IMG/VR virus record: IMGVR_UViG_3300030108_000458
Span: 1 to 29,735 of that record
Source of the DNA: a virus
Length of the DNA: 29,735 bases
Direction: 5' to 3' (one strand)
Made by a program: the position numbers and the translations under genes. Below are positions 20,402 to 29,735 of this stretch, in pieces. Numbering within the stretch: position 1 is the stretch's first letter; each line of letters starts with the position of its first letter. Under the pieces are notes generated by a model. The model saw only the letters and a list, made by a program, of their open reading frames with translations, was not told the DNA's origin and made no database searches.

Positions 20402-20417
20402 CACTTTATAAAAAGTG
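20402..20417 (+). promoter_or_regulatory. Hairpin covering a GTG start codon
   Basis: CACTTT and AAAGTG form a perfect 6-bp stem around loop ATAA. The GTG start of the next gene (20415-20417) lies in the 3' arm, so the start would be hidden unless the stem opens. It may limit translation of that gene. The stem is short and AT-rich, so stability is modest. Confidence 0.35.
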
Positions 20418-21482
20418 AGCAGGAAAAAAAACCACTTCAAAAGATTCAAAGATACTGGTAATCCAAGATACAGGTTAACACAGGATGAAGCAGAGATAAT
20501 ACACAAGTACAGAAGAATAAAAGAAGAAGCTCAATCACAGGGTTTAAATGTTAATGATGTACATAGTGGTTGGATAAAGTCAAAGGAAGCAAGTTTATAT
20601 TTTAAGAATCCTGATCACAAACAACAAGATTACAAGAAACTATTTAATGAACTTATTGAAGAGATTAAGGAGTATGCACCTCATTATAAGAAGATAGATA
20701 GGCCTAAAGTAATTGAACCACATTTGTTTTTCTGTTGTCCAAGTGATATTCATATTGGTAAATTATGCAGAAGTTTTGTTAGTGGTGTAGAGTATAACAA
20801 TCAAATAGCTGTACAACGCACTTTAGAGGGTGTTAGAGGGTGTATTAAAAAAGCTGAAGGGTTTCATATAGATCAAGTTGTATTATTGCTTTCTGGTGAT
20901 TTATTACATGTAGATGGATTTAAAACTACTACTAAAGGAACACTACAAGATATGGATGGATTGTTTTCAGATCATTTCATGATAGCTAAAAGGTTAATGG
21001 TTGAGGTTATAGAAATGCTGTTAGAAGTTGCTGATGTACAAGTTATGTACACAAGTGGTAATCATGATCATATTACAGGATGGCTAATGAGTGAAGTATT
21101 AAAAGCACATTTTAGTTTATGTAGTAATGTAAGTTGGAACAATGACTTAACTATGCGTAAATACTTTAAGTATGGTAAAACATTAATAAGTAGTACACAT
21201 GGTGATGGTATTAAATGGAACCTACTGCCTATGATAATGGCAGATGAGTGCAAGTGGTGGTCAGAAACTAAATACAGATATATGTTTACACAGCATATAC
21301 ATCACAAAGTGCAACATAAAAATGATTTTGTAGGTGTAACTTTAGAATCACTGCGTTCACCATCAGGTGCTGATGCTTGGCATCATAAGTCTGGCTATCA
21401 ATCTTCAAGTAATTTAGCTATAGAATCTTTCATATTTCATAAGCAACATGGACAGGTTGCAAGGTTAACACACCTTTTTTAA
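20415..21482 (+). CDS. Metallophosphoesterase (calcineurin-like)
   Basis: A 355-residue protein with all calcineurin-like motifs: CPSDIHIGK (D111, H113), LLSGDLLHVDG (D162), TSGNHDHITG (N216, H217, D218), STHGDGIKW (H262) and TQHIHHK (H294/H296). These bind two metal ions and hydrolyse phosphodiesters. Phage members act as nucleases, RNA-processing or nucleotide phosphatases; I cannot choose. The first 100 residues are helical, with YRLTQDEAEIIHKYRRIKEE near the start. GTG is the only reasonable start. It sits after the lysis genes and before the putative RNA gene. Confidence 0.82.
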   Translation: MSRKKNHFKRFKDTGNPRYRLTQDEAEIIHKYRRIKEEAQSQGLNVNDVHSGWIKSKEASLYFKNPDHKQQDYKKLFNELIEEIKEYAPHYKKIDRPKVIEPHLFFCCPSDIHIGKLCRSFVSGVEYNNQIAVQRTLEGVRGCIKKAEGFHIDQVVLLLSGDLLHVDGFKTTTKGTLQDMDGLFSDHFMIAKRLMVEVIEMLLEVADVQVMYTSGNHDHITGWLMSEVLKAHFSLCSNVSWNNDLTMRKYFKYGKTLISSTHGDGIKWNLLPMIMADECKWWSETKYRYMFTQHIHHKVQHKNDFVGVTLESLRSPSGADAWHHKSGYQSSSNLAIESFIFHKQHGQVARLTHLF

Positions 21483-21506
21483 CATTTAATTGTTAATAAA
21501 TTTTTT
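21479..21506 (+). terminator. AT-rich terminator after the metallophosphoesterase
   Basis: TTAACA and TGTTAA form a perfect 6-bp stem around TTTAAT, followed 5 bases later by six T residues. It starts inside the stop codon of the upstream gene. The stem has only two G-C pairs, so it would be weak; it marks the end of the late region. Confidence 0.4.
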
Positions 21507-21544
21507 AGTGTGTTTTGTATTTTGTATTATAATTATATATATAT

Positions 21545-21885
21545 TTACGCAAGTTCTTTGAGATAGTTGGTAAAACAAAGTTGAGTTTATTGGACACTAT
21601 GACGCACATCTTGGCAGGAGAGTTTAATAAAGTAAAACCGAATAAAAATATATGCACTTTTTTTAGTGTAGTTTGTAGCGGTACAAACACTTTATTAAAA
21701 CGCTGATAGATTAAGCTCTGTGAAAAGATAGCATACCCAAGCGAGGCAAGTGGCTTTACTACCTTTAAAATGGTATATCGGAAGGAAACAAAGAAGCAAG
21801 TAAAGAATCGTAAGTGGCTATTGACCGAGCATAACCCAAAGTAAAACAACGGAAAACATAAGAGCTTTAAGTAGCTTCTATCTCA
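21545..21885 (+). ncRNA. Candidate structured non-coding RNA
   Basis: This is the only stretch over 300 bases without a credible protein gene, and it is visibly richer in G+C and CG than its neighbours. Long-range complementarity: TTTAATAAAG (21623-21632) pairs perfectly with CTTTATTAAA (21690-21699), enclosing CACT/AGTG (21655-21658/21665-21668) and GTTTGTA/TACAAAC (21671-21677/21682-21688, loop GCGG). GATAGA plus AGCT (21705-21717) pairs with AGCTTCTATC (21873-21882), a 10-bp closing stem with a 3-base bulge. Inside it, CTTTACT (21754-21760) pairs with AGTAAAG (21799-21805), around ACC/GGT. AAGTGGCT occurs twice (21748, 21812). The 5' end has CTTTG/CAAAG (21556-21560/21576-21580). Edges are approximate. 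It is probably made as one transcript; function unknown. Confidence 0.65.
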
Positions 21886-21949
21886 TTGAACTTATTTAAT
21901 TTTAAAATTTATAAAAAAGAAGATTAACAAAAATTTTATTCTAAAAACT

Positions 21950-22084
21950 ATGAAAGTATATTTAAGAAACATCAAGTATGCATGGAAAATCTACAAAGAT
22001 GGTAGATGGGCAAATAATAAGTCGATTTATGTATGGATTTTGTGGTATACTACAAAGTATATTAAATACAAACTAAATTTATAA
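21950..22084 (+). CDS. Small aromatic basic protein, first gene of the early region
   Basis: A 44-residue product rich in Trp, Tyr and Lys (MKVYLRNIKYAWKIYKDGRW then IYVWILWYTTKYIKYK). The second half may be a short membrane-associated or amphipathic helix. It begins 67 bases after the closing stem of the putative RNA. I do not recognise it. The even use of codons and its place directly before other small early genes suggest a real host-takeover peptide, but support is modest. Confidence 0.5.
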   Translation: MKVYLRNIKYAWKIYKDGRWANNKSIYVWILWYTTKYIKYKLNL

Positions 22085-22096
22085 CTTTAAACAATT

Positions 22097-22252
22097 ATGA
22101 AAACAATAAACTATACAACACGCACATTTTATGTGCCTGCAAGCAAAATAGAAACATTGCTTGAGTTTCAAGAGAAATGCAGAACTAATGGCAGAAGGTC
22201 ATATTCTGAAGTACTATTAGAATTAATGGAACAATACAATGGAAATAATTAA
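22097..22252 (+). CDS. Ribbon-helix-helix-like small protein
   Basis: A 51-residue product with an N-terminal strand (TINYTTRTFYVPASK) followed by two helices (KIETLLEFQEKCRTNG and YSEVLLELMEQYNG). That strand-helix-helix layout with the basic turn NGRRSYS is typical of small ribbon-helix-helix regulators, which bind DNA as dimers with the strands in the major groove. It overlaps the next gene by 14 bases. A regulator of early genes is plausible; family membership is inferred from shape. Confidence 0.55.
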   Translation: MKTINYTTRTFYVPASKIETLLEFQEKCRTNGRRSYSEVLLELMEQYNGNN

Positions 22253-22565
22253 TTACTATAAATACTTGCAAGAAATGGAAGAATGGCAAGCATACTATTA
22301 TTATACTTCTTTACACTTTAGATTAAGAAAGATAATAAGACAAGCAAACTGGAACAAAACTATAATAACCAAGTTTGAATTAACTAACAATGACATTGAA
22401 ATACACAGACATAGATTTGATAGATTAATAGATGAAACTAAAGAAATTGGTGAAAAGTGGAAAGAACTTAGATATCAGTATGATGAACAAAGAATCAATA
22501 AAATAATAACACAATTAACTAAAATCAAAAATTATGAATTTAAAAACAGTAAACATAAAGGGTAA
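22239..22565 (+). CDS. Helical charged protein, unknown function
   Basis: A 108-residue protein with many Tyr, Lys and Glu (NYYKYLQEMEEWQAYYYYTS at the start; LIDETKEIGEKWKELRYQYD later) and no hydrophobic segment, probably a bundle of helices. It overlaps both neighbours. I see no known motif. It lies at the start of the recombination/replication genes. Confidence 0.65.
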   Translation: MEIINYYKYLQEMEEWQAYYYYTSLHFRLRKIIRQANWNKTIITKFELTNNDIEIHRHRFDRLIDETKEIGEKWKELRYQYDEQRINKIITQLTKIKNYEFKNSKHKG

Positions 22566-22884
22566 GCAGTACGTTACTGTAAATGAAAGATTAAAATACT
22601 TTAGAGAACATTTTGCAGGATACAGCTTAACAAGTGAAATAACACACCTAAATGAAAATGGTGTAATCATTAGAGCGTCTTTAAAAAACAATGAAGATGT
22701 TGAGGTAGCAAGTGGCTATGCACATGAGAAACAAAATAGCACATTTATAAATAAAACTTCATTCATAGAAAACTGTGAAACTTCTGCATGGGGTAGAGCA
22801 TTAGGAAACTTTGGTGTTGGTGTAGATCAATCAGTAGCAAGTGCAGATGAAGTAGCTAATGCAATTAAAAACCAGAAATCATGA
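22534..22884 (+). CDS. Probable single-strand annealing/recombination protein (Sak3/Rad52-like)
   Basis: A 116-residue protein. It starts YVTVNERLKYFREHFAGYSL and has a strand pair (VIIRASLKNNEDVEVASGYA) then FINKTSFIENCETSAWGRAL and GNFGVGVDQSVASADEVANA. The ETSAxGRALGxxGxGxDxSxASADEV block is a recognisable signature of short phage annealing proteins that I associate with the Sak3/Rad52 group. A RecB-type exonuclease gene lies one small gene downstream, as in lambda Red-like pairs. The family name is from memory; the gene is secure. Confidence 0.62.
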   Translation: MNLKTVNIKGKQYVTVNERLKYFREHFAGYSLTSEITHLNENGVIIRASLKNNEDVEVASGYAHEKQNSTFINKTSFIENCETSAWGRALGNFGVGVDQSVASADEVANAIKNQKS

Positions 22885-23015
22885 TACAAGAAATAAAATC
22901 AGAATATCAAAAGTTGCTTGAACTAGTTAAAGAAAAAGAACAAATAGAAAAGCAATGGAATGAAGCAATCAAAAAATTTTATGAATCTAAAATAAAAGAA
23001 AATGAAAAAGAATAG
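22881..23015 (+). CDS. Small coiled-coil peptide between annealing protein and exonuclease
   Basis: A 44-residue Glu/Lys-rich product (SEYQKLLELVKEKEQIEKQW and onward) that is almost entirely a predicted helix. Its ATG overlaps the upstream TGA and its end overlaps the exonuclease ATG by 14 bases, so it is part of the same translational chain. It may bridge the two recombination proteins. Function unknown. Confidence 0.55.
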   Translation: MIQEIKSEYQKLLELVKEKEQIEKQWNEAIKKFYESKIKENEKE

Positions 23016-23727
23016 ATTAAGTTATAGTGCATTGTGTGCTTTAAAGAAATCACCTAACCACTTACTAAAGTATTGGGAGGGTAAAACAAAAGTTACTGAT
23101 GCTATGTGGTTTGGTAGTATTATTCATAAGCTACTATTAGAACCAGATTCATTTAATGATGATTATGCTATATTTACTGGCGCAAGAAGAGCAGGCAAAG
23201 ATTGGCAAGAGTTTAAAGCAGTTAATCAAGATAAGCAGATCATAAAACTTTCTGAATTAGATGATGCTAATGCTATTGCTAAAAATGCTTTACAAAACCC
23301 TATCTTTAAAAACCTAATGCAAAACAAAGTACATACTGAAAAGGAAGTAACCTGGAATCATGCTGGAATTGATTTTAAAGGGTTTGTAGACCTTGAAAGT
23401 AAAATAGATGGTAGAACTATAGTATGTGATATTAAAACTACTACAGATGCTGGTAAAAGGTTTCAGAGAGATTTAATATACAATGACTACAAAATCCAAG
23501 CAGCTATGTATTTAGAAAACTATGATGATGCTGATTATTATATTATTGCAGTAGAAACTATATCACCATACAATGTACAGGTGTATAGATTAGGATACAA
23601 CATCATATCACAGGGTTATATTGAATATTGTAATCTTGTAGACAAATACAACAATTGGAATGGTAAACCAGTAGGTTATAGTAATGACATTATAGATATA
23701 GAAATTGAAGAGCAAATATTAATTTAA
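23002..23727 (+). CDS. RecB/RecE-type PD-(D/E)XK exonuclease
   Basis: A 241-residue nuclease. Motifs in order: YSALCALKKSPNHLLKYW (8-25), MWFGSIIHKLLLEP (H42), EKEVTW, GFVDLE (D130), VCDIKTTTDA (D143, K145) and the YxxQxxMYL motif (NDYKIQAAMYLEN, 161-173) that typifies RecB-family exonucleases. The DIK variant replaces the more common E-x-K, as in RecE-like phage exonucleases. It likely chews one strand of double-stranded ends so the nearby annealing protein can act in replication, recombination or end repair. Codons are almost all AGA for Arg, unlike the cassette downstream. Confidence 0.8.
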   Translation: MKKNRLSYSALCALKKSPNHLLKYWEGKTKVTDAMWFGSIIHKLLLEPDSFNDDYAIFTGARRAGKDWQEFKAVNQDKQIIKLSELDDANAIAKNALQNPIFKNLMQNKVHTEKEVTWNHAGIDFKGFVDLESKIDGRTIVCDIKTTTDAGKRFQRDLIYNDYKIQAAMYLENYDDADYYIIAVETISPYNVQVYRLGYNIISQGYIEYCNLVDKYNNWNGKPVGYSNDIIDIEIEEQILI

Positions 23728-23738
23728 AATAAAAAACA

Positions 23739-23978
23739 ATGAAAGATAAAACAATATACTGCGGTAGCGGTAAAGTAATGAATGAAAAGTGGTTAAAAGT
23801 AACTATTAATCCTGAAAAACTAAGAGAACACATACAAGAGTATAACGGTAATAAGTTTATAAAACTAAACATTAACTTAAAAGATGAAGCTGATCAATAT
23901 GGTAAAGATGTATCTATTAGTGTAGATACTTGGCAACCAGAAGAGAAGAAAGAATCTTCTAATGATTTACCATTTTAA
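23739..23978 (+). CDS. Small protein with SSB-like acidic C-terminal tip
   Basis: A 79-residue protein. The N-terminal part (KWLKVTINPEKLREHIQEYN then FIKLNINLKDEADQYGKDVS) alternates strands and helices. The last residues, WQPEEKKESSNDLPF, are a disordered acidic tail ending in DLPF, like the (D)DIPF tip with which SSB proteins bind replication partners. It is too short for a standard OB-fold SSB (about 105+ residues), but could be a compact single-stranded-DNA-binding protein or an SSB mimic. It is next to the exonuclease. Confidence 0.6.
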   Translation: MKDKTIYCGSGKVMNEKWLKVTINPEKLREHIQEYNGNKFIKLNINLKDEADQYGKDVSISVDTWQPEEKKESSNDLPF

Positions 23979-23980
23979 AG

Positions 23981-24295
23981 ATGATGGAAGAATCAAATTA
24001 CTTATTGAAAAGGGGTTTGACTATGTCAGTCATACAAGGTTTATTAATGGAAGGTTTTACACTTCCAGAGATAGCTAAAGAATTAAATATTAGACCTGAA
24101 AGATTGGCAAGAGAATATAAACCAATTAAAAAAAAATATAAGTACTTTGATAACATAACACCTAAAAAGGTAGATGAAGGGTTGGGTGCTTGTTCATTTA
24201 CCTTTGATGGTGTTTATACTTGGGACAGGTTAAGCCAATCTGAAATAGAGGCTTATAATGATTATAACAAAAAAAACCACGCGTATTATGTATGA
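23981..24295 (+). CDS. Small helix-turn-helix-like protein
   Basis: A 104-residue protein; GLLMEGFTLPEIAKELNIRP (about residues 20-39) fits a helix-turn-helix, with EIAKELNI as the turn and recognition helix start, followed by ERLAREYKPIKKKYK. The C-terminal part (FTFDGVYTWDRLSQSEIEAY) is of unknown fold. It could be a DNA-binding regulator. ATG 23981 and 23984 are both possible. It overlaps the following gene by 8 bp, where the composition starts to change. Confidence 0.55.
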   Translation: MMEESNYLLKRGLTMSVIQGLLMEGFTLPEIAKELNIRPERLAREYKPIKKKYKYFDNITPKKVDEGLGACSFTFDGVYTWDRLSQSEIEAYNDYNKKNHAYYV

Positions 24296-24530
24296 ACAAA
24301 ATGAATTATTTTCTTTCGAAGATTTTTTAGAAAATGACGAAAGTGATATAGACCATAATTACCCTCAACAAGTTTTATTATATTATAGCGAACAAGAAAA
24401 AAAAGAACTTGATATTATGACTAAACTATTAATAAAACATTATTGGGGTGATAATTATAAAAAAGCTAATAGATGTGATTTAATATTAAAAATTTTTAGA
24501 AATGAATGTGAAAAAATTAAAAGTCAATAA
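24288..24530 (+). CDS. Small acidic protein at the head of the modification cassette
   Basis: I chose ATG 24288, which overlaps the upstream stop; an ATG at 24258 is possible. The product (80 residues) has an acidic N terminus (FSFEDFLENDESDIDHNYPQ) and a Lys-rich C-terminal half. It overlaps the dioxygenase gene by 29 bases, so it is likely translated with it. No motif is recognised. It may belong to the transferred block. Confidence 0.6.
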   Translation: MYEQNELFSFEDFLENDESDIDHNYPQQVLLYYSEQEKKELDIMTKLLIKHYWGDNYKKANRCDLILKIFRNECEKIKSQ

Positions 24531-25380
24531 ATTATTTAATGACGACAAAGCAGCTAAATTAAAAACTAAATATGTTGATGAAAGTTATATAAAAACCTTA
24601 ATTGACTATGATGTTGACGTGTATGACAATTATAATAATTTACTTTTAAAATTTCGTAAAAATATAATTCCTTATGACATAGTTGAATTAGGTTATGAAA
24701 GTTTTAAAGGTTCACTGCAAAAAACTGAAGGAAGGGGTGCAGCAAGTGGGGCAAGCAAAAAAAGAGTTAGAAAAGATGGTTCTGTTAGTAACACTACAGT
24801 CGGAAATTTTGTAACAAGCGGCAATGTAGGTTATATGGATAGTTCAGCAATGGTTCGTTATTGTAGATTGACTAATTTTGGTAAAGAAAACTATGAACTT
24901 TTTAAATCTGGTATTCCTTTTATAGAATACGTTGATAAATTATATGAACAATTATGCCCTAATCATTATAAAAAGCAAAGAGCATTAGCAGACGCAACAA
25001 ATATAAATTATAAAATCCCTAACACGTCTTTCACTACAGTTACGGTCAATAAAACTTTTAGGACAGCTGTACACCAAGACAGCGGAGATTTTCGTGATGG
25101 ATTTGGTAATTTAATAGTATTTAATGACAAAAGTTATGAAGGCGGTTATTTTGTTTTGCCGCAGTACGGAATAGGTGTTGACGTACAAACTACTGACGCA
25201 CTTTTTGTTGACGTACATAAGTGGCACGGAAATACTGAAATGAAACTTCGTGAGGGTTTTGATGAAATATTTCGTATTAGTTTTGTATTGTACTATCGTG
25301 AAAATATGTTTAAATGCAAACAACCTACCCAACAACTTGAAGATTTAAAAATGAAATATCACGGATATTTAAAAATATAA
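24502..25380 (+). CDS. TET/JBP-family 2-oxoglutarate/Fe(II) dioxygenase
   Basis: A 292-residue enzyme. The C-terminal half has the TET/JBP double-stranded beta-helix: TTVTVNKTFRTAVHQDSGD (178-196) supplies the HxD iron ligands H191 and D193, followed by GFGNLIVFND and YEGGYFVLPQYGIGVDVQT (212-230). DVHKWHGNTE (237-246) carries the distal His (H242, possibly H239), and FRISFVLYYREN supplies the 2OG-binding Arg (R258). The N-terminal part has GYMDSSAMVRYCRLTNFGKE (110-129), also seen in phage TET/JBP proteins. These enzymes oxidise the methyl group of 5-methylcytosine (TET) or thymine (JBP) in DNA. At least six Arg codons are CGT, unlike the neighbouring genes. I am confident of the family, not of the substrate. 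Confidence 0.88.
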   Translation: MNVKKLKVNKLFNDDKAAKLKTKYVDESYIKTLIDYDVDVYDNYNNLLLKFRKNIIPYDIVELGYESFKGSLQKTEGRGAASGASKKRVRKDGSVSNTTVGNFVTSGNVGYMDSSAMVRYCRLTNFGKENYELFKSGIPFIEYVDKLYEQLCPNHYKKQRALADATNINYKIPNTSFTTVTVNKTFRTAVHQDSGDFRDGFGNLIVFNDKSYEGGYFVLPQYGIGVDVQTTDALFVDVHKWHGNTEMKLREGFDEIFRISFVLYYRENMFKCKQPTQQLEDLKMKYHGYLKI

Positions 25381-25399
25381 ACAAAATAAACTATAAATT

Positions 25400-25849
25400 A
25401 TGAAAACAAAAAATAAATTAGAAAAGGGTCTTGAATTTGAAGAAAAAATATATGACTGGTTATTAAGAGAAAAAAATATCAGCTGTAAAAAAAACCCATT
25501 AAAAAAACAACCTATAGGAGAAAATGCTCAAGGCATAGAAATAAAAAATGACCAAAGGTTTAAAGAAACTGGAAACCTATTTATTAGCACAAATAAAATA
25601 TATGGACACAAAACCATTGGCTGGGGCATTTATAAAGACGATAACAGTTGGCTTTATATAATAGGAGATGAAAGCAAATTTTGGATATTTACTTGCAAAC
25701 AATTACAAAACTTTCAAAAAGAAAATAAAGTATTTACTAAAGTAGTAAAACACGAAAAAGGTAGCGAAGCTGGCTTTCTTTTGCCTGTAAGTAAAGCTAA
25801 TAAAATTGCACCAAGTTATAGTATTAATCAATTAACATTACAATTATGA
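25400..25849 (+). CDS. Putative PD-(D/E)XK-like nuclease in the modification cassette
   Basis: A 149-residue protein between the dioxygenase and glycosyltransferase. It starts with a helix (LEKGLEFEEKIYDWLL) and then QPIGENAQGIEIKNDQRFKE, where GIEIK (E47, K49) fits the E-x-K of PD-(D/E)XK nucleases. The usual upstream acidic residue is Q44 or N42 here, so the site may be altered. WGIYKDDNSWLYIIGDES (75-92) and SEAGFLLPVSKANKIA follow, typical of the fold's later strands. It could cut unmodified DNA, or serve in DNA processing. It overlaps the glycosyltransferase by 4 bp. Confidence 0.55.
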   Translation: MKTKNKLEKGLEFEEKIYDWLLREKNISCKKNPLKKQPIGENAQGIEIKNDQRFKETGNLFISTNKIYGHKTIGWGIYKDDNSWLYIIGDESKFWIFTCKQLQNFQKENKVFTKVVKHEKGSEAGFLLPVSKANKIAPSYSINQLTLQL

Positions 25850-26607
25850 AACCTATATTAATACCTTCTAAAGGAAGAGCAGATAAATGTAAAACAGCAT
25901 TGTTGTTAGGTAATTTATCTAATTTATTTATAGTTGTTGAAAAACAAGAACATGAATTATATTCACAAAACGAAGATTTAAAACATTATAATTTTATAAT
26001 TTTACCAGAAAACGATAAAGGGATCAGTTATGTTAGGAATTATTGTTTACAAATTACCTATAAAATGGGCTGGGATTGGTTTTGGATGATTGATGATGAT
26101 ATAAATAATTTTTATAGAAGAGAAGGAAGCAAATTAATAAAAGATAATAAGGCGTTGTTTGAAGCTGAAAAAATCATAGATAGTAAAACAGCTCAAATTT
26201 CTTTAGAGTATCAACAATTTGCTTGGTGTGCTAATAAAGATTATGTCTTAAACAGTTATAATGACGTTTGCGTTTGTATAAATACTAGAGTTTGCCATGA
26301 GCAAGAAATAAAATATAGACCTTATGTTAATTTAAAAGAGGACAGGGATTTTACAATGCAAATTATCAAGGCTGGCTATAATGTAAAAAGATATACTTTA
26401 AGTGCCTTTGGAGCTCCTAAAAACGGAAGTAATGAAGGTGGGCTAAAAGATATGTATGACAACAGGGATAATGAATTAACTGCTACTAAACGGATGATTG
26501 AATTATGGGGTGAAGATGTATGTAGATTAAATATTAAAAAAGACGGCAGACCTGATTGTAAAATTATTTGGAAAAATATTAACAAAAAACAACTTAATTT
26601 ATTTTGA
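25846..26607 (+). CDS. GT-A glycosyltransferase, TET/JBP-associated (TAGT/GREB1-like)
   Basis: A 253-residue enzyme. It begins PILIPSKGRADKCKT (3-17), where the SKGR turn and first strand bind the sugar nucleotide. GISYVRNYCLQIT (59-71) and WFWMIDDDINNFY (78-90, DDD at 83-85 as metal-binding DxD) follow, then NLKEDRDFTMQIIKAGYNV (162-180, acidic ED motif). This arrangement fits the glycosyltransferases found next to TET/JBP dioxygenases in phages. Here it would add a sugar to a hydroxymethylated base. It follows the nuclease-like gene with a 4-bp overlap and ends the cassette. The exact sugar and base are unknown. Confidence 0.78.
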   Translation: MKPILIPSKGRADKCKTALLLGNLSNLFIVVEKQEHELYSQNEDLKHYNFIILPENDKGISYVRNYCLQITYKMGWDWFWMIDDDINNFYRREGSKLIKDNKALFEAEKIIDSKTAQISLEYQQFAWCANKDYVLNSYNDVCVCINTRVCHEQEIKYRPYVNLKEDRDFTMQIIKAGYNVKRYTLSAFGAPKNGSNEGGLKDMYDNRDNELTATKRMIELWGEDVCRLNIKKDGRPDCKIIWKNINKKQLNLF

Positions 26608-27027
26608 ATGAAAGAACTACCATACTTTAAATTTTTTCCTAACCAATGGATAACAGGTTCAGTTATGTTTATGGATTTAGATGTGCAAGGTGCATTTATG
26701 AAGATATGCTGCTACTACTGGAGCAAAGAATGTAATGTAAGCAGAGAACAAATAAAATCATTAGTGCCAGAACATTGGACTAAACTACTTGATAGTCAAC
26801 TACTTAAGATAGATAATGACAAGATAAAAATAAAATGGTTAGATGAACAATATGCAGAAAGATTAAAAGAACACAAAAGAAATGTAAGCAATGGTAGAAA
26901 GGGGGGTTTAAGCAGGGCTAAAGCATTAAGAAAAGATAATATAAGAAAAGATAAATATAAAGGTGATAATGTGTTAGCAGTTAATAATGAAGTACAAAAA
27001 ATATTAGATGATGCTGCTAAAAGATGA
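26608..27027 (+). CDS. DUF1376-like replication protein
   Basis: A 139-residue protein. YFKFFPNQWITGSVMFMDLD (6-25), GAFMKICCYYWSKEC and REQIKSLVPEHWTKLLDSQL form the winged-helix-like N-terminal module of DUF1376-type phage replication proteins. After ERLKEHKRNVSNGRKGGLSR the chain becomes basic and disordered. These proteins act at the replication origin, often together with the helicase-type ATPase that follows. It starts right after the glycosyltransferase stop and overlaps the ATPase by 20 bases. Codon use has returned to AGA. Confidence 0.7.
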   Translation: MKELPYFKFFPNQWITGSVMFMDLDVQGAFMKICCYYWSKECNVSREQIKSLVPEHWTKLLDSQLLKIDNDKIKIKWLDEQYAERLKEHKRNVSNGRKGGLSRAKALRKDNIRKDKYKGDNVLAVNNEVQKILDDAAKR

Positions 27028-27862
27028 TTACACATTACAATACTTAAATGCTTTTAAGAATGATAAGATTGAAAAAGGTATTGGTATTAAATGCTTATTA
27101 GATAATAATTTTGTATATAAGAAAGGTAACTTTAATATTTTTTTAGGTTTAGATAATGTAGGCAAAACTTCATTTATGATATGGTACTTAACAGCACTAA
27201 GTAAACTACATAAATTAAAGTGGGTTATTTGGTCAGGTGAAAACCATGCAGGACAACTTAAAAGAGATATAATACAATTCTGGACAGGACAACCATTAAA
27301 AGAAGTTAATGTTACATTCTACAATAATTTAATCAGTAAGTACTTTAAATTTGTTAGTAATAAAAAACTATACAATCATAAAGAACTATTAAAGATATTT
27401 GAAGATATGGATGTTGATGGCTGTTTAATTGATCCTTACACAGGACTGAACCATGATAGAAGAATAGCACAATTTGAAAGAAATTATCAAGTGTGTAATG
27501 ACATGAGAGAGTTTTGTAATAAAACAAATAAATCTATTTTTTTAAGTATGCATCCACAAACAGAAGCAGCAAGAAGAGTATACCCTCAAGATCATCAGCT
27601 GAATGGACACATACAAGCACCAAGAAAAGCTGACTGCGAGGGAGGACAGGTGTTTCCAAATAGGGTAGATAATTTAATTTGCATACACAGATTAACAACA
27701 CATAAAGAATTATGGCACTTGACAGAAGTTCATGTGTATAAAATAAAAGACAAAGAAACTGGTGGACAACCTACAGCTTTAAATGAACCTTTAAGGTTTG
27801 ATTATAATAAAGGATTAGGATTTACCATTGGTGGTATTAATGCATTAAATAAAAAACAATGA
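27008..27862 (+). CDS. RecA/DnaB-fold ATPase (probable replicative helicase or loader)
   Basis: A 284-residue P-loop protein. Walker A GLDNVGKTS (47-55); WVIWSGENHAGQLKRDI (72-88) gives the acidic residue after strand 2; Walker B VDGCLIDPYTGL (136-147). SIFLSMHPQTEAARR and RKADCEGGQVFPNRVDNLIC (about 208-227) look like the sensor and arginine-finger parts. This fits RepA-like/DnaB-like phage ATPases. No N-terminal DnaB domain or primase is present, so it is a minimal single-domain form. It follows the DUF1376-like gene, the usual partner. ATG 27008 or 27011 are both possible. Confidence 0.75.
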   Translation: MMLLKDDYTLQYLNAFKNDKIEKGIGIKCLLDNNFVYKKGNFNIFLGLDNVGKTSFMIWYLTALSKLHKLKWVIWSGENHAGQLKRDIIQFWTGQPLKEVNVTFYNNLISKYFKFVSNKKLYNHKELLKIFEDMDVDGCLIDPYTGLNHDRRIAQFERNYQVCNDMREFCNKTNKSIFLSMHPQTEAARRVYPQDHQLNGHIQAPRKADCEGGQVFPNRVDNLICIHRLTTHKELWHLTEVHVYKIKDKETGGQPTALNEPLRFDYNKGLGFTIGGINALNKKQ

Positions 27863-28098
27863 AATATAGATATGATAACATAGATACTTTTATGAGTTAT
27901 AAAAGTTGGACAGATAAACAAAAGATAGATGAACTATTAAGAATTGATTGCAACCTGTATGCAAACTTAGGTACTGATAGCACACAAGAAGAAAAGGCAG
28001 AAGCTAAAAGAAGAAGTTTAATTATATATAGATTAATTAAAACACTTGATAAAAAGTTAGGTGATGAATTATTATATATGGAAGATAAAAAGCAATAA
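27859..28098 (+). CDS. Small charged phage protein, unknown function
   Basis: A 79-residue helical protein (KSWTDKQKIDELLRIDCNLY; EEKAEAKRRSLIIYRLIKTL) whose ATG overlaps the ATPase stop and whose stop overlaps the next ATG. It contains YANLGTDSTQEEKAEAKR, which I associate with small proteins of Bacteroidota phages. Role unknown, probably part of the replication set. Confidence 0.6.
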   Translation: MKYRYDNIDTFMSYKSWTDKQKIDELLRIDCNLYANLGTDSTQEEKAEAKRRSLIIYRLIKTLDKKLGDELLYMEDKKQ

Positions 28099-28355
28099 TG
28101 GATACAATAGATATAACAATTACAAAGAACAAGTTGCAGATACTTATGTTACAAGCAAGAGAAAACATTAAAGAAAAAGCAACCAATAGCAAATTAGAAG
28201 CGTTAGATACATTAACAGATGCTTATTCTACTATAGTTTATTTACAAGCTGCACTTGATGATTTAAGAAAGAAAAACCTTATAGCTGAACAAAACAATGT
28301 TAAGGCATACAGGCAGAACAAAAAACTTAAACAAAAATTTATTAAATTTGTATAG
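28098..28355 (+). CDS. Small coiled-coil protein
   Basis: An 85-residue, Lys/Glu-rich helical protein (ILMLQARENIKEKATNSKLE; AALDDLRKKNLIAEQNNVKA). No catalytic motif. It overlaps the previous gene by one base. Probably an oligomerising accessory factor; not recognised. Confidence 0.6.
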   Translation: MDTIDITITKNKLQILMLQARENIKEKATNSKLEALDTLTDAYSTIVYLQAALDDLRKKNLIAEQNNVKAYRQNKKLKQKFIKFV

Positions 28356-28356
28356 T

Positions 28357-28452
28357 ATGAATTTACAATATATTTATTATATAGTATTCATGGTGTGTAT
28401 AGTATCCTTCTTTGCAGGGTTACTTACACATTATTTATTTAATAAAGATTAA
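28357..28452 (+). CDS. Tiny single-membrane-span protein
   Basis: A 31-residue product made almost entirely of one hydrophobic segment (YIYYIVFMVCIVSFFAGLLT) with a short cytoplasmic tail (LFNKD). It fits between two genes without overlap. Phage early regions often carry such small membrane proteins. Real status is likely but unproven. Confidence 0.45.
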   Translation: MNLQYIYYIVFMVCIVSFFAGLLTHYLFNKD

Positions 28453-28453
28453 A

Positions 28454-28624
28454 ATGGCAAAGAAAAGAACACTAAATGAATTAAGACAAACTAAAGAGGT
28501 TTATGACCATCCTTATGAACCTGTAGTTAATGGTATTAAATATCTATGTGCTATATATCCTAATAATGCAGATTTAGGTGCAGCAGTTAGAGAACATTTC
28601 CAAATACATAAGAATGAACGCTAA
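28454..28624 (+). CDS. Small basic phage protein
   Basis: I chose ATG 28454 (MAKKRTLNELRQ), one base after the previous stop, over an upstream ATG at 28412 inside it. The 56-residue product has YDHPYEPVVNGIKYLCAIYP and a charged C terminus. It overlaps the nuclease gene by 11 bases. Function unknown. Confidence 0.55.
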   Translation: MAKKRTLNELRQTKEVYDHPYEPVVNGIKYLCAIYPNNADLGAAVREHFQIHKNER

Positions 28625-28964
28625 TAAAAAAGGCAAAAGATTTGAACTTAAAGTAGCTAAGTTTCTTGCAGAAAGACTTGATGCTAATATTAGAAGAACA
28701 CCCAATAGTGGTGGGCTAAGCATGAAAGGTGATATACTATGTATTGATGATCAATCTATATTATCAGAGTTTAACTGGGAATGCAAGAACCAAGAGAAGC
28801 TAAACATTTGGAAAGCACTTGAGCAAAGCAGAAATGATTGTTTAGGTAATGCAAAGATGCCTGTAGTATGCTTTACTAAAAACCATGAAAGAGATTACAT
28901 TGCTTTAGAATTAGATGACTTTGTAAATTTATTAATAGAAATTGAAGAAGGTAGACAAAAATAA
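28614..28964 (+). CDS. Holliday-junction-resolvase-like PD-(D/E)XK nuclease
   Basis: I chose ATG 28614; upstream ATG 28578 would extend into the previous gene. The 116-residue protein has GKRFELKVAKFLAERL (E11), RRTPNSGGLSMKGDIL (D40) and FNWECKNQEKLNIWKALEQS (E56, K58). The order E, D, ExK then a Gln/Glu-rich helix is the Hjc/VRR-type signature. It would cut branched DNA before packaging or in recombination. The start overlaps the previous gene by 11 bases, and the end overlaps the sigma-like gene by 23. Confidence 0.7.
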   Translation: MNANKKGKRFELKVAKFLAERLDANIRRTPNSGGLSMKGDILCIDDQSILSEFNWECKNQEKLNIWKALEQSRNDCLGNAKMPVVCFTKNHERDYIALELDDFVNLLIEIEEGRQK

Positions 28965-29463
28965 TCTATTAGAACATTTAGCATTATTTCATAATAACTA
29001 TTGTGAGATTGCTAAAAATTTATTATATAACAAAGACAAGAAAGCAGTACAAGATATTGTACAAGAAATGTATATTAAGCTTTATGATCAAGTAGAAGAA
29101 GGCAAATTAGAAATACAACAATTAATAATAAATGATAAACCACACTTTGGAATTATTAAAAGAACTTTATTACGGATCATACAGCATACAGCTAACAATG
29201 AAAACAAATTACCAAAAGATGAAAATGCTACTATTAAAAACATAATACAAGAAGATGATTATAACATAGAAGAGTTTAACAACAAAGTAATAGAAATATT
29301 AAATGGTATGTATTGGTTTGATAGAAAACTATTCACACTTTATGTTAAGCAATTTAACAGCATTAGAAAGTTGGCAAAGGAAACAAGATTAGGACATGTA
29401 ACTGTATACAACACAATTAAAAGAGCAAAGAAAAACATAAAAAAAAAATTATATGAAAAGTAA
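28942..29463 (+). CDS. Sigma-factor-like protein
   Basis: A 173-residue protein with a TTG start; a TAG at 28936-28938 stops the frame upstream and no ATG lies at the N terminus. Residues 12-48 (LALFHNNYCEIAKNLL then AVQDIVQEMYIKLYDQ) resemble the region 2 helices of sigma-70/ECF factors (DLVQETFLRLY-like). The C terminus (LAKETRLGHVTVYNTIKRAK, about 144-163) is a region 4-type helix-turn-helix. Such phage factors redirect host RNA polymerase and could recognise the shared boxes at 1117 and 9931. The family match is moderate; a DNA-binding protein of other type is possible. Confidence 0.62.
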   Translation: MKKVDKNNLLEHLALFHNNYCEIAKNLLYNKDKKAVQDIVQEMYIKLYDQVEEGKLEIQQLIINDKPHFGIIKRTLLRIIQHTANNENKLPKDENATIKNIIQEDDYNIEEFNNKVIEILNGMYWFDRKLFTLYVKQFNSIRKLAKETRLGHVTVYNTIKRAKKNIKKKLYEK

Positions 29464-29735
29464 AGGACTTGGAGATACAGTAGAAAAGATAACCAAAGCA
29501 ATAGGAATTAAAAAAGCTACCAATTACATATTTGATAAATTAGGTATGGATTGTGGCTGTGAAGCACGCAAGGAAAAACTAAATAAATTATTTCCTTACT
29601 CTAAACCAGAATGCTTAACTGAAGAAGAGTACATGACATTAAAAGCAATATTCAATCACATCAACAATAGAATAGGAACAACAGAACAATCAGCATTATT
29701 AAAAATATATAACAGAATCTTTCATGACAAAAGAC
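29453..29735 (+). CDS. Conserved phage protein, 3' end missing
   Basis: ATG 29453 lies inside the end of the sigma-like gene and the frame is open to the window end. The visible 94 residues contain GLGDTVEKITKAIGIKKATN, a segment MDCGCEARKEKLNKLFPYSK (with CGC) and EEEYMTLKAIFNHINNRIG. I recall small proteins with GLGDTVEKxTKAxGIKKxxD and CGCxxRKExLNKLFPY in Bacteroidota phages. Function unknown; the gene is incomplete. Confidence 0.6.
   Translation, partial: MKSKGLGDTVEKITKAIGIKKATNYIFDKLGMDCGCEARKEKLNKLFPYSKPECLTEEEYMTLKAIFNHINNRIGTTEQSALLKIYNRIFHDKR

Follow-up and report, generated by a model that had tools for sequence, protein, structure and literature searches.

What occupies the gap between an SbcD-like exonuclease gene and a gene for a 51-aa protein in this marine virus? 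The window analysed here is the whole of IMG/VR virus record IMGVR_UViG_3300030108_000458, positions 1-29,735 (29,735 bases), and the gap spans 21483-22096; the flanking genes and all elements of the gap described below lie on the plus strand unless stated otherwise. The exonuclease gene (20415..21482; PHROG 704, E 3.4e-64) forms the upstream flank. An earlier note, made from the letters of this DNA, had proposed a long structured RNA at 21545-21885, between the late and early regions. Comparison with homologous phage regions bears out the RNA and corrects its limits: alignments (A1, A3 and A4) and covariation place a structured noncoding RNA of 343 nt, both strands of its closing stem included, at 21551..21893. 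The higher G+C that had been remarked on is real, at about 0.36-0.37 against 0.21-0.27 in neighbouring noncoding stretches of the window.

The first ORF 3' of the RNA encodes 44 aa (21950..22084) and the downstream flanking gene 51 aa (22097..22252); neither has a Pfam match, and the 51-aa protein is ribbon-helix-helix-like as judged by eye. In two related loci (L009 and L041), a relative of the 51-aa gene is the next gene after the RNA. The reverse strand of the gap holds one 114-aa ORF, without support, which overlaps the RNA in antisense. No tRNA or tmRNA was found in the window. Further downstream, the gene at 24502-25380 matches PHROG 24024, with a weak match to the queuine tRNA-ribosyltransferase family, and that at 25846-26607 resembles beta-glucosyl-HMC-alpha-glucosyltransferase (PHROG 842), making it a possible DNA modification gene.

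The case for a structured RNA does not come from the window sequence by itself. The complementarity in this stretch had been called unlikely by chance. Compared with dinucleotide shuffles, however, 21545-21900 folds with an unremarkable minimum free energy (z = -1.53, with 8 of 100 shuffles as good), so that single-sequence complementarity is not strong evidence. Relatives were gathered from IMG/VR contigs by protein searches with the flanking genes and by DNA pattern searches. The 20 loci examined contain 15 distinct RNA sequences, all of them closed RNAs of about 290-356 nt built around a common three-way junction; this count omits the near-identical L010, L039, L191, L203 and L219, the last three being on the contigs of L040, L042 and L044. 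Near-identical copies of the window RNA are found in L009, L010, L039 and L041, and remoter relatives in L040 (80% RNA identity to the window), L042, L044 and L046. Further relatives are L045/L047 (92.5%), L048, L257/L258/L262, L051, L049, L256/L259/L260/L261 and L050. One candidate, L043, was removed from the family, as its pattern match falls within an apparent coding region (by eye) and lacks a match to the covariance model described below.

Covariation, named in the earlier note as the check on its proposal, is present across these sequences. In a model-fitted alignment of the 15 distinct RNAs, which leans toward the structure, 93.1% of the 812 base-pair cells at 57 pairs can pair, compared with 82.0% in shuffles and 31-41% when the structure is slid. 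Double-sided changes occur at 23 of the 57 pairs (17.0 in shuffles, with 0 of 500 reaching 23) and in 100 cells (34.5 in shuffles). The number of further standard pair types is at the shuffled level (44 against 44.9, with 382 of 500 shuffles as high). In A1, a plain MAFFT alignment, the 35 pairs of the hand-named helices are 94.6% paired, against 31-46% when slid, and 13 of them show double-sided changes, a number that 1 of 500 shuffles attained. From the same alignment, RNAalifold derives a structure of 57 pairs, of which 22 show compensatory change. Taken in aggregate, the comparative data make it nearly certain that this structured RNA family is real.

The RNA is closed by a leader-trailer helix, P1, which pairs 21551-21566 with the trailer strand at 21878..21893 and covaries; it has an inner part (21559..21566 with 21878-21885) and an outer part (21551-21556 with 21888-21893). 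The window strands are UGAGAUAG/CUAUCUCA. RNAs of the L049 type have other but complementary strands (UUUACAUA/UAUGUAAA plus AACUAGC/GCUAGUU), as do those of the L050 type (AAAUACU/AGUAUUU plus GAUAAG/CUUAUU). The closing stem drawn earlier, 21705-21717/21873-21882, is a window-specific alternative: its 5' strand is not conserved in relatives, and its 3' strand pairs, with covariation, with 21551-21566 as part of P1. Immediately 5' of the trailer strand sits a short hairpin, P10 (21862..21877, pairing 21862-21866/21873-21877), which varies as GAGCU/AGCUU, GAGCG/CGCUU and GAGCA/UGCUU and is missing in L051.

Within P1, P2 (21580-21582/21848-21850 and 21586-21590/21841-21845) is weaker, at 75.6% and 78.7% paired, because its pairs are broken in some relatives. 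P3 (21598-21601/21830-21833) is paired in 100% of cells, with double-sided changes at all four of its pairs, and opens into the three-way junction. Arm A (21605..21722) comprises P4, a variable interior, a hairpin and a pseudoknot. P4 (21605-21608/21719-21722 and 21610-21613/21712-21715) is again paired in 100% of cells, with double-sided changes at 4 of 8 pairs. The 10-bp complementarity described earlier, 21623-21632 (TTTAATAAAG) with 21690-21699, is perfect in the letters, and the hairpin placed inside it is present (GTTTGT/ACAAAC, 21671-21676/21683-21688). The loop of this hairpin, at 21678-21681, had been proposed to form a pseudoknot with CGC at 21701-21703. Loop pairing holds up with a different partner: in relatives, 21679-21682 (CGGU) pairs with the upstream ACCG at 21637-21640, as ACGCU/AGCGU in L040 and CGCU/AGCG in L048, L051 and L257, the hairpin and pseudoknot being hand-picked helices checked sequence by sequence, without shuffle control. 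No pseudoknot partner was seen by eye in L049 or L050.

Arm B (21720..21827) is the most conserved part of the RNA and went unrecognised in the earlier note. This core reads GUGAAAAGAUAGCAUACC...GGCAAGUGG, then P8, then CGUAAGUGGCUAUUGACCG, and is held by a helix at 21727-21732/21817-21822, 21734-21736/21814-21816 and 21741-21744/21808-21811. The main core helix shows no covariation (0 of 9 pairs) because the core is almost invariant. P8 (CTTTACT/AGTAAAG, 21754-21760/21799-21805), correctly picked out before as a 7-bp helix, caps the arm and covaries in relatives, with double-sided changes at 4 of 6 pairs.

A covariance model, R1, was built from 12 sequences, the window's among them, and matches the window at 21550-21896 with 345.5 bits. 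It matches 7 of 7 later-found loci at full length (E 1.8e-26 or better); as these loci were chosen by core pattern, only the match to the non-core structure counts as independent evidence. A positive control recovered 8 of 8 virus records, all holding R1 building sequences or copies of them. With strict filters, by which weak matches are lost, R1 found 0 matches in 399 Bacteroidota genomes from the order of G002 and 0 in 395 from the phylum of G004, likewise Bacteroidota. A partial match in one of six cellular genomes (E 0.3) was taken as noise. The core pattern had 0 matches in bacterial genome contigs, and R1 none in 4.2 kb of Flavobacterium phage snork6 or in Nonlabens phage P12024S. Three family members, used as blastn queries against cultured phage records, returned chance matches only (best E 0.05).

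Known families do not account for the RNA either. Rfam 15 at gathering thresholds gave 0 matches in the window, and Rfam at gathering thresholds likewise 0 in 12 further loci containing either the family or a different RNA of the same slot (e.g. L044, L047-L051, L259 and L262); relaxed thresholds brought up nothing besides the start of the DUF2693 RNA. No such RNA is named in the open-licence literature searched.

The 5' strand of the closing stem suggests how the RNA may be made. It begins with the 11-mer AAGTTCTTTGA (21551..21561; the sole exact copy in the window), and the same element precedes 23S rRNA: the identical 11-mer lies upstream of 23S in L058 and L126, where 23S positions were verified with Rfam. 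The earlier note was right to connect a TTCTTTGA...TTGG opening with other Bacteroidota loci, this being the element just before 23S rRNA. The rRNA element is defined by the 19-mer AAGTTCTTTGACATATTGG, from which the window departs after position 11. At least 120 stretches in bacterial genomes carry this 19-mer, mostly in Bacteroidota with a few others among the matches listed. Eighty of these at least 120 loci were read: 61 place it within 1.5 kb before 23S rRNA, 2 after 16S at a contig end and 17 elsewhere. In L058, it ends 25 bases ahead of the start of the Rfam LSU match. BoxA is the NusB-S10 site of rRNA operons, and on sequence grounds AAGTTCTTTGA is likely an rRNA-type boxA that the RNA uses.

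The element is a constant of the family. The first 11 letters of the phage RNAs are AAGTTCTTTGA, or AAGTTCTTTTA in the L049 type, with L050 differing at two, and a boxA-like element lies at the RNA 5' boundary in 20 of 20 loci, promoter and transcript start being putative. Fourteen loci (L045-L048, L049-L051 and L256-L262) were found through core patterns that exclude the 5' end; all 14 start boxA-like, eight of them exactly, five with one mismatch and L050 with two. Across the 15 distinct RNAs, mean column identity is 0.958 in the boxA strand and 0.733 in its pairing partner, which argues that the boxA-like sequence is held by more than pairing. In L049-type RNAs, AAGTTCTTT is retained, though the outer AAGTTC there mostly lacks a partner. 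A boxA pattern scan of viral contigs also matched apparent coding regions (by eye) in L174, L176 and L177, so that the motif alone is no marker of an RNA. Complementarity of the RNA to rRNA is apparently not above chance except for the sense boxA itself, and 11-12 nt matches besides boxA look like chance, both judged without shuffle control.

Two further sets of boxA-like sequences were encountered. In Bacteroidota genomes, boxA-type 19-mers lie away from rRNA at L083:4055, L093:1328, L103:4755, L119:2413 and L125:3430, and in L093, L103 and L125 the 19-mer is followed by a shared TTGGTTTACACG; these may head other noncoding transcripts. A phage locus (L172:7391-7700 and L175:4118-4430) opens with a boxA-like element, after which comes a long inverted repeat (GTGCAAAAGGACA/TGTCCTTTTGCAC); L172 has no Rfam match.

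In E. coli, boxA acts as a single-stranded element, unlike the boxA of this RNA, which is paired in the final fold; this weighs against the reading favoured below. For E. coli rRNA, NusB bound to boxA is proposed to tether the leader to the polymerase as the RNA between them loops out, and this tethering is proposed to allow leader-trailer pairing (PMC10250234, PMC6614801). By analogy, an RNA with a 5' boxA and a leader-trailer helix would fit such a scheme.

Directly upstream lies a putative Bacteroidota-type promoter, TATATTTA (21520..21550), with a TTG 22 nt upstream and one mismatch to TAnnTTTG, the Bacteroidota-type consensus, 3 nt 5' of the RNA. By eye, related slots retain it whether or not they contain the RNA. 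The one-mismatch form in the window is uninformative, as 59% of shuffles have one. An exact TAnnTTTG stands within 32 nt upstream in 5 of 10 representative loci, compared with 1.7% at random places and 6.1% in shuffled upstream sequence.

Near-identical copies of the RNA stand in unrelated flanks. RNA identity is 92.5% between the window and L045 (flanks 69-71%), 91.7% between L048 and L051 (61-66%), 97.4% between L260 and L259 (64-66%) and 99.3% between L259 and L261 (66-68%), these flank values being close to free alignment of unrelated AT-rich DNA by an estimate without control. The window and L009 have identical RNAs (100%) and flanks at 85-88%. The genomic contexts differ in kind: between exonuclease and early genes in the window and L040 groups; at an operon start after metallophosphoesterase-like and lysis-type genes (both by eye) in L047; after a RusA-like gene in L048, with L262 at the corresponding place (by eye); behind holin and NinG genes in L259; behind the large terminase gene in L049 and L260; near a 189-aa late-region gene and structural genes in L051; and at a divergent operon start in L050. 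The RNA thus appears to move between unrelated viruses of marine bacteria.

It is also dispensable in relatives. The slot from the exonuclease to the 51-aa gene, the second anchor, was surveyed in 49 distinct sequences, with identical slots collapsed, loci with only one flank left out, and classes set by length, family 5' end and reading by eye. The same flanking genes enclose an empty slot of 84-101 bp in 28 of the 49; 11 hold other DNA, mostly small ORFs, 6 the window's RNA family, 2 a second boxA-led putative RNA and 2 other putative RNAs. In all, 43 of the 49 slots lack the family; copies elsewhere in those genomes are excluded within the loci scanned. The second boxA-led candidate (L011:2391-2587 and L017:753-949) is about 190 nt with a long closing stem, TTTATTTATTGGGTT/AACCCAATAGATAAATAAA, and its fold in L011 has z -1.85. 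In the same slot, L204:725-821 holds about 95 nt closed by ATGCAAGG/CCTTGCAT, without boxA and folded without shuffles, and L016:1545-1644 a candidate of similar length, about 95 nt, with AAAAGTTAAAAGGGA/TCCCTTTTACTTTT as its closing stem; a 98-nt piece of it folds with z -1.79. With one or two sequences and single predicted folds each, these putative RNAs are unproven. Defence families were found for 0 of 10 proteins encoded by neighbour genes.

We give about an even chance to the reading that this is a mobile accessory phage noncoding RNA whose synthesis uses the host boxA/Nus system of rRNA operons, whose ends join in a leader-trailer helix and which acts in trans in host takeover or counter-defence. 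A trans-acting accessory RNA is favoured because relatives lack the RNA, the slot takes unrelated cargo, and the core is conserved while the neighbours are not. Transcription would begin at the host-type promoter directly upstream, and the nascent 5' bases would recruit the host NusB-S10 antitermination complex, allowing RNA polymerase to make an untranslated RNA without Rho termination. NusB-S10 may keep the 5' end by the exit channel until the 3' strand emerges, whereupon the RNA ends would zip into P1 and cover boxA, as in the pre-rRNA leader-trailer helix. The finished RNA, an accessory cargo that moves horizontally, would then use its invariant core to act in trans on a target, most likely some component of the host, in takeover or counter-defence. 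NusB-S10 binding, antitermination, trans action and the target are the parts of this scheme that we infer.

The alternative that survives best is a cis-acting leader of the downstream operon, working by antitermination or boxA control of the next gene. The RNA is always co-oriented, follows a putative promoter, carries boxA at its 5' end and precedes an ORF that starts 13-53 nt past it in 19 of 20 loci (L256 reaches the contig end). No terminator-like site was found on the plus strand of the window from 21400 to 29735, which together with this spacing suggests that the RNA may be an operon leader. There are precedents: the HK022 put RNA acts as an antiterminator for early phage genes (PMC9378689), and boxA controls the next gene in the case of suhB (PMC5725501). 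Because the window's RNA family regularly stands where a transcription unit begins, the leader is a serious rival. Set against it, 28 of 49 distinct slots have the same flanking genes without the RNA, the first downstream genes differ even at 99.3% RNA identity (L259/L261), the RNA also occurs in two late-region settings, behind terminase (L049, L260) and close to structural genes (L051), and in dense phage genomes an ORF follows closely behind almost any element. On balance, a cis-acting leader is possible but rather doubtful.

Alternatively, the RNA might be a decoy that titrates the host NusB-S10 antitermination complex and so lowers host rRNA synthesis. An rRNA-type boxA under sequence constraint, in an RNA that heads the early region in several contexts, would suit this role; the burial of boxA in P1 in the final fold, and a conserved core of about 100 nt that a decoy would not need, make it unlikely. 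The packaging and origin roles suggested in the earlier note, by a phi29 pRNA-like RNA or an origin primer, are more improbable still. The RNA does lie behind the large terminase gene in L049 and L260 and combines a three-way junction with a pseudoknot, but close relatives with the same flanks lack it, most other contexts do not adjoin terminase, and other phages carry it elsewhere. A phi29 pRNA-like RNA, being needed by the packaging motor, should be fixed in its phage lineage, and the absence of the family from 43 of the 49 distinct slots in this phage group, with copies elsewhere excluded within the loci scanned, speaks against it. That there is no RNA at all, and that the signal reflects chance complementarity or conservation at the level of DNA or protein, is scarcely credible: the unremarkable folding energy, the antisense ORF and a 35-codon ORF that the window and L009 have within the RNA would allow it, but that ORF is missing in L040, L042, L044 and L046, and the helices covary.

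The trans-acting accessory RNA that we favour has several partial likenesses. One is the Bacteroidota rRNA spacer, with the same boxA-like start before a pre-23S leader-trailer helix in which RNA ends pair; the window RNA differs in being phage-encoded, non-ribosomal and about 340 nt, with boxA inside the closing helix. The DUF2693 RNA (RF02956) opens with GaUCUUUGACAUAcUUG, aligned to the first bases of the window RNA, at 13.7 bits (E 2.4-3.2) against a gathering score of 81.3; only its unpaired first 30 positions align, and no structure is shared. The letters common to RF02956 and window 21553-21597 are the boxA-like opening, so the DUF2693 RNA may also be boxA-led. The HK022 put RNA is likewise a structured RNA heading early phage transcripts; it is much smaller (about 65 nt) and is not known to carry boxA. 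GOLLD and ROOL are large phage RNAs of unknown function, similarly ornate, sporadic and without a known protein partner; they differ in length, and the Rfam scans of the window and 12 loci gave no gathering-threshold match. Phage noncoding RNAs and boxA-led RNAs are kinds already known. What is new, to our knowledge, is a mobile phage RNA that joins an rRNA-type boxA with a leader-trailer helix.

A broader and more tentative reading concerns the slot itself. Downstream of an early promoter, marine Bacteroidota phages may keep a docking site for exchangeable cargo, mutually unrelated structured RNAs as well as small genes. The RNAs would be built like rRNA, with borrowed boxA and leader-trailer helix, and would serve as RNA weapons against host functions or defences; the window RNA would be the commonest of them among the slots read, having spread to at least six genomic contexts. 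Searches of phage accessory loci look for proteins. Here, one such locus is occupied by a structured RNA, a new family with a strongly conserved core, which alternates with small genes and recurs near-unchanged in unrelated phages. The family makes it possible to test whether phages put the transcription machinery of rRNA to use in producing and folding noncoding RNAs of their own. As it appears to move between unrelated viruses, the RNA may serve them as an exchangeable tool at an early stage of infection.
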